Assembly: GCF_000212695.1 (NCBI RefSeq)
Contig: NC_015514.1
Location: 1,798,001-1,862,000, forward strand
Length of the DNA: 64,000 nt
From: Cellulomonas fimi ATCC 484
Lineage (GTDB): Bacteria; Actinomycetota; Actinomycetes; Actinomycetales; Cellulomonadaceae
Direction of reading: 5' to 3'
The position numbers and the translations under genes were made by a program. Under the pieces are notes generated by a model. The model did not search any database and was not told where the DNA came from. It saw only the letters and a program-made list of their open reading frames with translations. This document shows positions 48,010-52,895 of this stretch, in pieces; positions within the stretch are counted from its first letter, which is position 1, and every line of letters starts with the position of its first letter.

Positions 48010-49197
48010 ATGAGAGCTTCCCTGCGTAGAAGGAACCCCGCGCCGGAGGCCGGTGTCGTCTCCGGCCCCGCCCGCGTCGACCCCCGGACGAAGGCGCTGA
48101 CCAAGCGGCTGCGCCCCGGCGACGTGGCCGTCATCGACCACCTCGACCTCGACCGGGTGTCCGCCGAGGCGCTGGTGGCGTGCCAGCCCGCGGCCGTGCT
48201 CAACGCCGCGCGCTCGACGTCGGGCCGGTACCCGAACCTCGGCCCGGAGATCCTCGTCTCGGCCGGCGTGCCGCTCGTCGACGACCTCGGCGCCGACGTC
48301 ATGGCGCTGCCCGAGGGCCACCGCCTGCGCATCGTCGACGGGTGCGTGTACGACGGCGAGACGCTCGTCGCGGAGGGCGTCGAGCAGACGCCGCAGACCG
48401 TGGCCGCGACCATGGAGGAGGCCCGCGCGGGGCTCTCCGTGCAGCTCGAGTCGTTCGCGGCGAACACGATGGACTACCTGCGGCGCGAGCGCGAGCTGCT
48501 GCTCGACGGCGTGGGCGTGCCCGACATCGCGACCGAGATCGACGGCCGGCAGGTCCTCATCGTGGTGCGCGGGTACCACTACAAGGAGGACCTCGTCACG
48601 CTCCGCCCGTACATCCGCGAGTACCGCCCGGTGCTCATCGGGGTGGACGGCGGTGCCGACGCGATCCTCGACGCCGGCTGGAAGCCCGACATGATCGTCG
48701 GCGACATGGACTCGGTGTCCGACCGCGCGCTCACGTGCGGGGCGGAGGTCGTCGTCCACGCGTACCGCGACGGCCGCGCACCCGGGCTCGCGCGCGTCGA
48801 GCAGCTCGGCGTGCGGCACGTCGTCTTCCCGGCGACGGGCACGAGCGAGGACGTCGCGATGCTCCTGGCCGACGACAAGGGTGCGGAGCTCATCGTGGCC
48901 GTCGGGACGCACGCGACGCTCGTGGAGTTCCTCGACAAGGGCCGCTCCGGCATGGCGAGCACGTTCCTCACGCGCCTGCGCGTGGGAGGCAAGCTCGTCG
49001 ACGCGAAGGGCGTGTCGCGGCTCTACAAGCACCGCATCTCGAACCTGCAGGTCGCGCTGCTCATCGTCGCGGGCCTGCTGGCCCTCGGGGTCGCGCTCGC
49101 GTCGACCGCGGCCGGGCAGACGCTGCTGGGCCTGCTCGGTGCGCGCATCGACGACCTGACCTCGTGGGTCGGCGGCCTGTTCGGCGGAGCGCCGTGA
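48010..49197 (+). CDS. steA: SteA-like cytokinetic ring protein
   Basis: This 395-residue protein matches the actinobacterial SteA family (Rv1697), which I recall as a cell-division partner of SteB in Corynebacterium. Its central domain resembles thiamin pyrophosphokinase folds (VDGGADAILDAGWKPDMIVGDMDSVSD), but a kinase role is not supported by context. A C-terminal transmembrane segment lies at about residues 345-365 (VALLIVAGLLALGVALA), leaving the main domain in the cytoplasm. The stop overlaps the next small frame by 4 bases. It opens a run of coupled envelope genes. Confidence 0.88.
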   Translation: MRASLRRRNPAPEAGVVSGPARVDPRTKALTKRLRPGDVAVIDHLDLDRVSAEALVACQPAAVLNAARSTSGRYPNLGPEILVSAGVPLVDDLGADVMALPEGHRLRIVDGCVYDGETLVAEGVEQTPQTVAATMEEARAGLSVQLESFAANTMDYLRRERELLLDGVGVPDIATEIDGRQVLIVVRGYHYKEDLVTLRPYIREYRPVLIGVDGGADAILDAGWKPDMIVGDMDSVSDRALTCGAEVVVHAYRDGRAPGLARVEQLGVRHVVFPATGTSEDVAMLLADDKGAELIVAVGTHATLVEFLDKGRSGMASTFLTRLRVGGKLVDAKGVSRLYKHRISNLQVALLIVAGLLALGVALASTAAGQTLLGLLGARIDDLTSWVGGLFGGAP

Positions 49198-49307
49198 CGC
49201 AGCAGCCCCACGGTCACGGCGCCGACGCCCGCGACCTCGACCCGACCGACCACCTCGACCGGCGAGGGGCGACGCCCGCCGCCACCGACGGAGACCCTGC
49301 ACCGTGA
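49194..49307 (+). CDS. Possible 37-residue ORF between steA and steB
   Basis: A 38-codon frame starts with GTG in the steA stop (GTGA) and stops in the steB start (GTGA), so it links the two genes exactly in coupled register. The peptide is hydrophilic, rich in Asp, His and Pro, with no recognisable domain. It may be a real microprotein, a coupling device that carries ribosomes to the steB start, or chance. Exact 4-base overlaps at both ends make chance less likely. Confidence 0.4.
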   Translation: MTQQPHGHGADARDLDPTDHLDRRGATPAATDGDPAP

Positions 49308-51252: not shown

Positions 51253-52895
51253 GCCCGGGCGTCCGCCGGGTCCTCGGCGGGCTCGGTGGCGCCGCGGCGA
51301 TGATCGCGGCGATCACCGTGCTCAGCCGGGTGCTGGGGTTCGCCCGCATCCTCGTGCAGGCCGGTGCGTTCGGCGCCGGTGCGATCGGCAGCACGTACAA
51401 CTCGGCGAACATGCTGCCGAACGTCGTGTTCGAGGCCGCGGCGGGCGGTGCGCTCGCCGGCGCGCTCGTCCCGCTGCTCGCCCTTCCGGTGTCGCGCGCG
51501 CTGCGCAAGGACGTCGACGCGATCGCGTCGGCCGCGCTCGGCTGGACCCTGCTCGTCCTGGTCCCGCTCGGCGGGCTCCTGGCGCTGCTCGCCGGCCCGA
51601 TCGCGAGCGCCTGGCCGGGGCTCGAGGACGCGCACCGCGAGCTGCTGCGGTACTTCGTCACGGTGTTCGCGGTGCAGGTGCCGCTGTACGGCGTGGCGGT
51701 GCTGCTGTACGCCGTGCTGCAGGCGCACAAGCGGTTCTTCTGGCCGGCGTTCGCCCCGGTCATGTCCTCGGTCGTCGTCATCGCCGTCTACGCGACCTAC
51801 GCGCACCTCGCGCAGGGGCACCGGGACGACCCGGCGGCCGCCGGGAGCACGGCGCTCAGCGTCCTCGCGTGGGGCACGACCGCCGGCGTCGCGGTGATGT
51901 GCCTGCCGATGTTCTGGCCCGTGCACCGTCTCGGTGTGCGGCTGCGACCGACGCTGCGGTTCCCGGAGGGGGTCGGGCGGCGTCTCGCGGCGCTCGCGTT
52001 CGCCGGCGTGGGGTCGCTCGTCGCGCAGCAGCTCGCGATGCTGGTCGCGGCCCTGGTCTCGGCGCGGCGCGGCGGCGACGGCACCTACTCGCTCCTGCTG
52101 TGGTCGCAGCAGGTCTACCTGCTGCCGTACGCCGTGCTCGTGGTGCCGCTCGCGACCTCGACGTTCCCGCGGCTGTCCGCGCACGCCGCCGCGGGCCGTC
52201 GCGCCGAGTACGCCGCCATGGCGTCGACGACGACGCGGGCCGTGGTGCTCGCCGCCGGTGTGGGTGCGGCGGCCGTCGCCGCCGCGGCGCCCGCGGTCGC
52301 GGACGTCTTCGCCGACCTCGGCGGCGACCGGGAGGCGATCAGCGCGCTCTCGCCGACGATCACGCTCATGATGCCCGGGCTCGTCGGCTTCGCCGTGCTG
52401 TTCCACGTCTCGCGCGCGCTGTACGCGAGGGAGCGCGGGCGGGCGGCCGTCACCGTCAACGTGCTCGGCTGGGGCGTCGCGGGCGTGGCGTCCGTCGCGC
52501 TGGGGGCCGCGCTGGTCCCCGAGGGTCACGACCTGCGCCGCACGCTCGTCGCGCTCGCGGTCGCGAACAGCCTCGGGATGCTCGTCGGGGGGACCGCCGC
52601 GGTCGTGGCGCTCGCCCGCGCGGCCGGGCGGGACGCCGTGCGCGGCCTGGTGCGGACGACCGCGCTCGTCGTCGTCGCCGGCGGCGTCGCCGCCGTCGCG
52701 GGCCGGTGGGTCGTCGACTCGGTCGTCGCGCTCCTCGGGCACGACGCGGGGTCTGCGGTGGGCGGTGCCGCGGGCGGCGCGGTCGTCGCGCTCGTCGTCA
52801 TGGCGGGCGCGGTCGCGGTCGGTGACCGGCGCACGGTGACCGACATGCTCCGGGTCGAGCGCACGCCCGAGCCCGTCGCGGGCGACCCTGCCTGA
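51249..52895 (+). CDS. murJ: MurJ/MviN-family lipid II flippase
   Basis: This 548-residue polytopic protein of the MOP superfamily has about 14 predicted transmembrane segments. It shows family features such as TVLSRVLGFARILVQAGAFGAG, YNSANMLPNVVFEAAAGGALAGALVPLL, and SLLLWSQQVYLLPYAVLVVPLATSTFPRLS. MurJ carries lipid-linked peptidoglycan precursors across the membrane. The coupling with a MraY/WecA-like gene and steAB suggests a linked lipid-carrier task. Whether it is the main cell-wall flippase or a paralogue cannot be told from this window. The start is GTG overlapping the previous stop. Confidence 0.9.
   Translation: MSPGVRRVLGGLGGAAAMIAAITVLSRVLGFARILVQAGAFGAGAIGSTYNSANMLPNVVFEAAAGGALAGALVPLLALPVSRALRKDVDAIASAALGWTLLVLVPLGGLLALLAGPIASAWPGLEDAHRELLRYFVTVFAVQVPLYGVAVLLYAVLQAHKRFFWPAFAPVMSSVVVIAVYATYAHLAQGHRDDPAAAGSTALSVLAWGTTAGVAVMCLPMFWPVHRLGVRLRPTLRFPEGVGRRLAALAFAGVGSLVAQQLAMLVAALVSARRGGDGTYSLLLWSQQVYLLPYAVLVVPLATSTFPRLSAHAAAGRRAEYAAMASTTTRAVVLAAGVGAAAVAAAAPAVADVFADLGGDREAISALSPTITLMMPGLVGFAVLFHVSRALYARERGRAAVTVNVLGWGVAGVASVALGAALVPEGHDLRRTLVALAVANSLGMLVGGTAAVVALARAAGRDAVRGLVRTTALVVVAGGVAAVAGRWVVDSVVALLGHDAGSAVGGAAGGAVVALVVMAGAVAVGDRRTVTDMLRVERTPEPVAGDPA

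Follow-up and report, generated by a model that had tools for sequence, protein, structure and literature searches.

A distant MraY-like membrane protein is the near-constant partner of SteA in two phyla and a predicted component of polyprenyl-linked glycan synthesis

In the window, the whole 64,000-nucleotide stretch of Cellulomonas fimi ATCC 484 DNA that was analysed, steA and steB are followed by an unnamed gene for a membrane protein distantly related to MraY and WecA, designated here MraYL, which protein is a near-constant partner of SteA in two phyla and not a local add-on. There is, in our estimation, an even chance that SteA and MraYL constitute the fixed pair of an ancient module, one that serves a polyprenyl-linked envelope glycan tied to cell separation; and most likely SteA couples the cutting of the septal wall to a polyprenyl-linked glycan pathway. 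We base this reading on the gene identities, order, and overlaps, on co-occurrence, on conserved motifs, and on one fusion of a GT2 sugar transferase with MraYL, all of which were observed here. The features of the locus are the following:

46267-48003, plus strand: recN, upstream neighbour outside the module (TIGR00634, 512.2 bits)
48010-49197, plus strand: steA, encoding SteA, a membrane-anchored septal factor with a thiamine-pyrophosphokinase-like pocket (matches to NF040608 and PF12555)
49194-49307, plus strand: micro-ORF of 37 codons at the steA/steB boundary, a probable translational-coupling leader
49304-50332, plus strand: steB, of the MctB family (match to PF11382)
50329-51252, plus strand: MraYL, membrane protein distantly related in fold to MraY/WecA, with a predicted role as polyprenyl-phosphate sugar-phosphate transferase (family-profile match to MraY structures)
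51249-52895, plus strand: murJ2, MurJ-family flippase paralogue of a steA-locus branch (match to PF03023, below the TIGR01695 cut-off)
52986-54656, plus strand: pyrG, downstream neighbour outside the module (NF003792, 836.9 bits)

A preliminary description of this DNA had reported five serial plus-strand frames joined by 4-base start/stop overlaps, which arrangement was confirmed when all four junctions were re-read (GTGA, GTGA, ATGA, and GTGA in gene order), and the identities it gave to the genes, namely SteA, SteB/MctB, a MraY/WecA-like protein, and MurJ, were upheld by profile matches. Six bases separate the end of recN from the start of steA, and 90 the end of murJ2 from the start of pyrG. 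No sigma-70-like promoter was found in 47700-53300, the one terminator-like site of that interval being on the minus strand, and no RNA element exceeded the gathering score in 44000-56000. Overlaps of 4 bases are frequent in high-GC actinobacteria and are thus little evidence by themselves, so that their weight resides in conservation across genomes.

The MraY-like gene had been put forward as a possible extension of the steAB locus, its co-occurrence with steAB having been set beforehand as the test, and that view is now reversed. With cut-offs chosen after the tables had been seen (for SteA and MraYL, respectively, E < 1e-50 and E < 1e-15 in Actinomycetota, E < 1e-100 and E < 1e-30 in Bacillota) and with kinship ignored, SteA was present in 154, MraYL in 137, and both in 130 of 396 Actinomycetota genomes, the co-occurrence being far from rare (130 of the 154 SteA-positive genomes); while among 299 genomes of a Bacillota phylum 188 had SteA, 187 MraYL, and 186 both, with 110 having neither and 3 being discordant. 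Excluded as weak were 42 of 196 SteA and 49 of 186 MraYL genomes in Actinomycetota (including genomes G237, G351, and G058, which have MraYL fragments), and 40 of 228 and 16 of 203, respectively, in Bacillota. At the level of families, MraYL occurred in 43 of the 45 SteA-bearing families of Actinomycetota, and a total of 76 families divided into 43 with both proteins, 30 with neither, and 3 discordant.

Both positions were listed for 127 of the 186 Bacillota genomes having the pair, and all 123 of the same-contig pairs lay within 4 kb. When MraYL served as the bait, SteA was found in 65 of 80 named loci, these being the best 80 of at least 587 in a ranking biased towards one query row, and in 59 of the 64 among them with at least 3.2 kb upstream. 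In 20 close-spaced Bacillota regions (one with a spacing of 2.0 kb, the others being 19 of the 21 whose pairs lie within 2 kb), SteA and MraYL remained paired though steB was missing in 16 and GT2 in 4. If, as one possibility, these genes performed unrelated jobs and merely had in common a promoter and a long-conserved neighbourhood, the commonness of 4-base overlaps and the conservation of recN, NUDIX, and further neighbours near steA in both phyla would fit; and the age and conservation of the recN-NUDIX neighbourhood do make linkage by itself count for less than a shared pattern of presence and absence. Nevertheless, it is presence and absence that are joint here, not position alone, as the 3 discordant cases in 299 genomes and the 3 in 76 families indicate, and in the seven genomes of the order common to two samplings the unlinked GT2 tracks SteA (present in 4 of 4 with SteA, absent in 3 of 3 without), so that we regard such an explanation as quite improbable.

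The main exception to the pairing is family f7, with MraYL in 0 of 14 SteA genomes, which family is probably the Mycobacteriaceae, where SteA was studied. Against the module, SteA functions in f7 without MraYL, and five f6 genomes keep a MraYL relative without SteA, the two of these that were read having changed N168 and K182.

The MraYL of the window matched no Pfam or NCBIfam family at E 0.001 or better, did not match PF00953 (MraY/WecA) even at E 1 and so did not reach the Pfam cut-off, and as a single sequence matched nothing in the PDB. Among three relatives scanned against PF00953 (cut-off 27), one passed with 36.7 bits (L063), another failed with 21.3 (L016), and the third gave no match (L025). 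With the family profile of MraYL, structures of MraY were matched (E from 3.9e-6 to 2.2e-4), the catalytic-type Asp pairs and the GD motif being in register with those of MraY in the alignment to 8tlu and 8g01. The double Asp, NxxNLxD, and GD motifs align with MraY, whereas the loop RPGRxxK replaces DGLDGLA, and MraYL is shorter and by reading lacks the HH motif. Residues D90, D91, N171, D174, and D225 were conserved in 111 of 111 SteA-type members, the choice of these rows by profile score shutting out more divergent sequences like the f6 ones. MraYL is probably an enzyme that charges a lipid carrier with a sugar. The reduced length, the absent HH motif, and the changes in the f6 members would also suit a non-enzyme, a lipid-binding or scaffold protein of a SteA complex; but the residues aligned with the catalytic positions of MraY are invariant in the 111 score-selected members, and the gene travels with a glycosyltransferase, to which it is fused in one instance, which points to an enzyme and leaves the scaffold role very improbable.

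That glycosyltransferase is the GT2, whose gene frequently lies between steB and MraYL at related loci and is the one fused to MraYL in L017, the single such case; in the window's genome it occupies a separate place, adjoining a gene for a phosphatase-like membrane protein. The best NCBIfam similarity of the GT2 was to AglJ-type polyprenyl-phosphate transferases (103 and 106 bits in the two members scanned). The GT2 of related loci shares the GT2 fold with the AglJ/dolichyl-phosphate hexosyltransferases, but falls far below the AglJ cut-off of 325 and is partnered with SteA and MraYL. The phosphatase-like protein (730-843 residues) gave no significant Pfam or NCBIfam match, and its label thus rests on motifs read by eye. 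GT4 genes, too, occur at related loci, and together with those for GT2 and the phosphatase-like protein they lend support to the earlier guess of a lipid-linked glycan.

The SteA of the window passed the curated cut-off of NF040608 (511.5 against 150 bits) and, in its C-terminal SteA-like domain, that of PF12555 (60.8 against 26.4), and matched the solved relatives 9hmy and 9hmz, as well as, weakly, a solved 6-hydroxymethyl-dihydropterin pyrophosphokinase (E 3.7e-4); SteB passed PF11382 (SteB/MctB; 272.9 bits, cut-off 25.6) and weakly matched the solved MctB chains 9m9z and 9hle. In C. glutamicum, SteA reportedly binds UDP or GDP, which stabilise it; the pocket of SteA resembles thiamine pyrophosphokinase as well as the site at which the sialyltransferase CstII binds CMP, with carbohydrate binding being predicted; the SteB of M. 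tuberculosis binds the coiled coil of the hydrolase, and SteAB controls RipA/RipC, the same authors proposing SteA as a possible sensor of wall metabolism and arguing for a role of SteB wider than copper transport (PMC12977500). Cell separation in M. tuberculosis requires SteA/TapA (PMC12338722), and septal localisation, like UDP/GDP binding, is published for the C. glutamicum homologue only (PMC6705760, PMC12977500). The window shares with that SteA-SteB-RipA/RipC system the SteA and SteB families, as neighbouring genes after recN, but differs in that MraYL comes next after the pair, as it does in the majority of the SteA-bearing families examined, and is often joined by GT2 or MurJ2, whereas the f7 genomes have none of these three at the locus.

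If, alternatively, SteA were one of the enzymes in the glycan pathway, the division phenotype would stem from a faulty septal envelope, and the control of a hydrolase or of MtrAB would be a later role, the main one in mycobacteria. The published pocket and its predicted carbohydrate binding, the weak pyrophosphokinase match, and the 16 of 20 close-spaced Bacillota loci that comprise SteA, GT2, and MraYL without steB agree with that explanation; but no catalytic activity of SteA was found reported in the literature examined, and f7 keeps SteA without MraYL, so that we consider it unlikely.

In the preferred reading, where SteA couples septal cutting to the glycan pathway, MraYL would act at the cytoplasmic face, where polyprenyl phosphate would receive a phospho-sugar from a nucleotide sugar (probably a UDP-sugar); the GT2, which many lineages have next door and the window's genome has at a second place, would attach a sugar to a polyprenyl carrier; and MurJ2, in the lineages having it, would flip the product across the membrane. 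Since binding of UDP or GDP is published for a homologue, SteA would then read the nucleotide state of the pathway and, via SteB where present, release a septal peptidoglycan hydrolase. We infer here that MraYL and GT2 lie within what SteA senses, as we do the activity and substrate of MraYL, the glycan, the site, and the direction of the signal. The pairing outside one family suggests that SteA monitors the synthesis of a cell-surface sugar. Only tentatively do we extend this proposal to a previously unrecognised polyprenyl-linked envelope glycan pathway, old and common to Actinomycetota and Clostridia, with SteA and MraYL as its core and GT2, GT4, MurJ2, and phosphatase-like proteins as exchangeable parts; in which pathway the SteA ligand would be a nucleotide or nucleotide sugar, and of which the mycobacterial SteAB control of separation would be a reduced remnant. 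Since the studied family seems to be without the most constant partner of SteA elsewhere, work on that family could hardly have revealed the link. Should a polyprenyl-linked glycan indeed be the product of MraYL and GT2, the question of the ligand left by the SteA structure paper (PMC12977500) would reduce to a short list of nucleotide sugars, and the pathway would contain an uncharacterised transferase family.

As for the micro-ORF, earlier described as a microprotein, what relatives conserve is the frame and not the peptide. The steA-steB gap measured 3n+1 bases in 25 of the 26 resolved loci of the genus and in 11 of 12 distinct lengths, the frame from the steA stop to the steB start being kept in those 25 loci while the length varied; and the peptides read in frame at these 25 loci, 12 to 37 codons long, shared no core other than the codons that overlie the ribosome site of steB. 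A functional peptide was rejected, both length and sequence being variable. The conserved Met-Ile with which steB begins (NTG ATC) by itself creates the stop that overlaps this start, which limits the evidence to the frame and the start overlap; the micro-ORF is probably a translational-coupling leader.

MurJ2 is a lineage-specific addition: it was present in 14 of 40 Actinomycetota loci, hand-picked from the 154 SteA-positive genomes, and in 7 of the 80 named loci (the best 80 of at least 587), all 7 with actinomycete titles. The possibility of an essential extension was rejected on these counts. The protein resembles the MurJ lipid II flippase in exceeding the PF03023 (MurJ/MviN) cut-off (154.9 against 27.4 bits), but differs in remaining below that of the MurJ equivalog TIGR01695 (163.5 against a curated 235.55), and another MurJ of the same genome, outside the locus, scores higher. 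A tree of 51 rows gives no support to MurJ2 as a recent copy of that other MurJ, and places it on a separate branch together with the other steA-locus MurJ.

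SteA's partner is MraYL, the MraY/WecA-fold protein encoded by the fourth gene of the cassette, and the association extends over two phyla. With E cut-offs that we set after viewing the tables (1e-50 for SteA and 1e-15 for MraYL in Actinomycetota, 1e-100 and 1e-30 in Bacillota), strong SteA was found in 154 and strong MraYL in 137 of 396 Actinomycetota genomes, kinship being ignored: 130 had both, 24 SteA only, 7 MraYL only, and 235 neither; by family (n = 76) the corresponding numbers were 43, 2, 1, and 30. Fourteen of the 24 SteA-only genomes belong to family f7—all 14 of its SteA-positive members—and one to f9; the nine others come from families otherwise carrying both proteins, and among these G237 holds MraYL fragments and in G351 the match is partial, at the end of a contig. 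The accessible text of PMC12977500 describes SteAB as largely restricted to Actinobacteria. Among 299 genomes of the phylum to which Geosporobacter belongs (Bacillota), 188 had a SteA passing the cut-off, 187 had MraYL, 186 both, and 110 neither. Positions were listed for 127 of those 186 genomes, the two genes lying on the same contig in 123—in every instance within 4 kb start to start, with a median of 2.4 kb—and on different contigs in 4. With MraYL as bait, SteA occurred at 65 of 80 named loci (the best 80 of 587), and at 59 of the 64 among these having at least 3.2 kb upstream.

The MraYL of the window gave no significant match in Pfam or NCBIfam and, as a single-sequence query, none in the PDB; a profile of 38 MraYL sequences matched four MraY entries there (E 3.9e-6 to 2.2e-4). 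The double Asp, NxxNLxD, and GD motifs stand in register with those of MraY in the two alignments displayed, whereas RPGRxxK occupies the position of MraY's DGLDGLA. The PF00953 cut-off was passed by one of three relatives scanned with Pfam (that of locus L063), and this family matched the SteA-linked position in several of 31 Actinomycetota genomes, with scores both above and below the cut-off. Moreover, D90, D91, G102, H106, K121, N168, N171, D174, P177, R179, and D225 are invariant in 111 of 111 relatives picked by profile score, which set lies apart from the divergent members of the f6 type. MraYL is thus a distant MraY/WecA-fold protein, active by appearance. The window's genome encodes two further PF00953 proteins at other places.

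The remainder of the locus varies. The order steA-steB-GT2-MraYL, where GT2 is a sugar-transferase family, was present at 59 of the 65 named SteA-bearing loci (among the best 80 of 587); in 20 close-spaced Bacillota loci steB was absent from 16 and GT2 from 4, steA and MraYL being retained. The Bacillota loci L226–L230, L232–L239, and L242–L244 read steA-GT2-MraYL with no steB between, and SteA may therefore act there without SteB. L229, the sole Bacillota locus inspected fully, has spoIVB and spo0A upstream and DUF3866 and NUDIX genes downstream. In 40 loci chosen from the 154 SteA-positive Actinomycetota genomes, we found MraYL at 33 (32 as best match plus the fused L017), GT2 at 17, MurJ2—the MurJ paralogue of the fifth gene—at 14, and a phosphatase-like protein at 11. 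The seven lacking MraYL comprise two of f7, one of f9, and L014, L020, L022, and L042, whose genomes carry MraYL or fragments of it on a different contig or outside the region retrieved. In L017 (11060–12280) GT2 and MraYL form one frame of 406 residues, the MraYL part being without some 80 N-terminal residues, which fusion was the only one among the 40 chosen and the best 80 of 587 named loci. GT2 and MurJ2 seem mutually exclusive at the locus: at L005–L044 GT2 only was seen at 16, MurJ2 only at 13, both at 1, and neither at 10 (n = 40). The two GT2 proteins scanned matched Glycos_transf_2, the closest relatives being polyprenyl-phosphate transferases of the AglJ type, far below the AglJ cut-off. 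The window's genome encodes a GT2 of the SteA-locus family at a separate place (228.3 bits against 71.8 for the next best):

L187:6659–9860 (G000:C1, about 4036658–4039859): second locus of the window's genome, phosphatase-like protein abutting GT2 on the other strand

This putative phosphatase is a polytopic membrane protein of 843 residues. Of 30 loci of the order inspected, with about 1.5 kb of flank, 26 had a strong GT2, and its pairing with the phosphatase-like protein recurred at 12 of these. In the seven genomes of the order common to both surveys, strong GT2 occurred in 4 of 4 with SteA and in 0 of 3 without.

By family, the partners of SteA would be users of nucleotide sugars and polyprenyl carriers. 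In the accessible text of PMC12977500, UDP or GDP stabilises C. glutamicum SteA, the pocket is likened to those of thiamine pyrophosphokinase and the sialyltransferase CstII, SteB engages RipA, and SteA is proposed as a sensor of wall status. The simplest reading of the gene association is that SteA would monitor a polyprenyl-linked glycan pathway on its nucleotide side, and that SteB, where present, would relay that reading to a hydrolase. Three points count against this pathway model. First, the accessible part of PMC12338722 places SteA/TapA above MtrAB, an alternative route for SteA, and reports that separation in two mycobacteria requires SteA/TapA and not MctB. Second, SteA works without MraYL in f7, which family we take as Mycobacteriaceae because the SteA of L009 scores 606.6 bits against the solved SteA chain 9hmy, with an identity of about 85% by eye; at both f7 loci inspected, L008 and L009, pyrG directly follows steA and steB. 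Third, five f6 genomes (of 11 listed) have a MraYL relative without SteA; in the two relatives inspected N168 and K182 are both changed. In the f6 layout (L189:9807–10559; L191:9343–10116) recN is followed by the MraYL relative and a GT4-like gene; pyrG lies at a greater distance, and SteA is absent. The steA-steB pair, its Nocardioidaceae fusion, and the Clostridia position downstream of spo0A are already known (PMC12977500, accessible text); a link of SteA/SteB to MraYL or GT2 genes was not found in the main texts and library records searched.

The window's MurJ relative scores below the MurJ equivalog cut-off, and a higher-scoring MurJ is encoded elsewhere in the genome. Because 18 of 22 steA-locus MurJ share an exclusive branch (SH-aLRT 99) in a quick, midpoint-rooted tree of 51 sequences, MurJ2 is, on phylogenetic grounds, a dedicated paralogue of part of Actinomycetota; the remaining 4 fall among the 29 MurJ from elsewhere. 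General-branch MurJ stand at four steA-region or MraYL-region loci (L116, L018, L105, L110), and MurJ was therefore recruited on more than one occasion. One pull-down in the accessible part of PMC12338722 detected both MurJ and TapA, that MurJ not being stated to be the one of this locus.

The five serial frames with four 4-base overlaps of the preliminary description were confirmed on the sequence, and SteA and SteB are clearly identified by Pfam and NCBIfam. Cellulomonas sequences are the closest among named relatives (81–82% identity), which would place the window in a genome of that genus. From the end of recN to steA there are 6 bases, and from the end of murJ2 to pyrG 90. Since the scan of 47700–53300 gave no sigma-70-like promoter and the lone terminator-like site there lies on the opposite strand, a single transcript is possible. 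As to the micro-ORF, the steA-steB gap measured 3n+1 bases in 25 of the 26 resolved loci of the genus set of 29; these cover 11 of the 12 distinct lengths, for which the binomial P would be 5e-5 were length unconstrained. In 25 loci the frame is uninterrupted and its start—ATG or GTG in 24, CTG in 1—overlaps the steA stop; the other informative frame has a stop in 6 of the 25. The overlap with the steB start is a consequence of the conserved NTG ATC start and not separate evidence. The peptides share little beyond the codons over a GGAGA/GAGA-like site 5' of steB, and at L005 and L024 the 4-base overlap is between steA and steB themselves. The micro-ORF thus most likely serves to hand ribosomes over from steA to steB. 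Upstream of the tlyA-nadK-recN run, the window also contains two tandem arrays, at 42150–42390 (period 9, about 27 copies) and at 43654–43825 (period 7, about 25 copies of CGACCGG).
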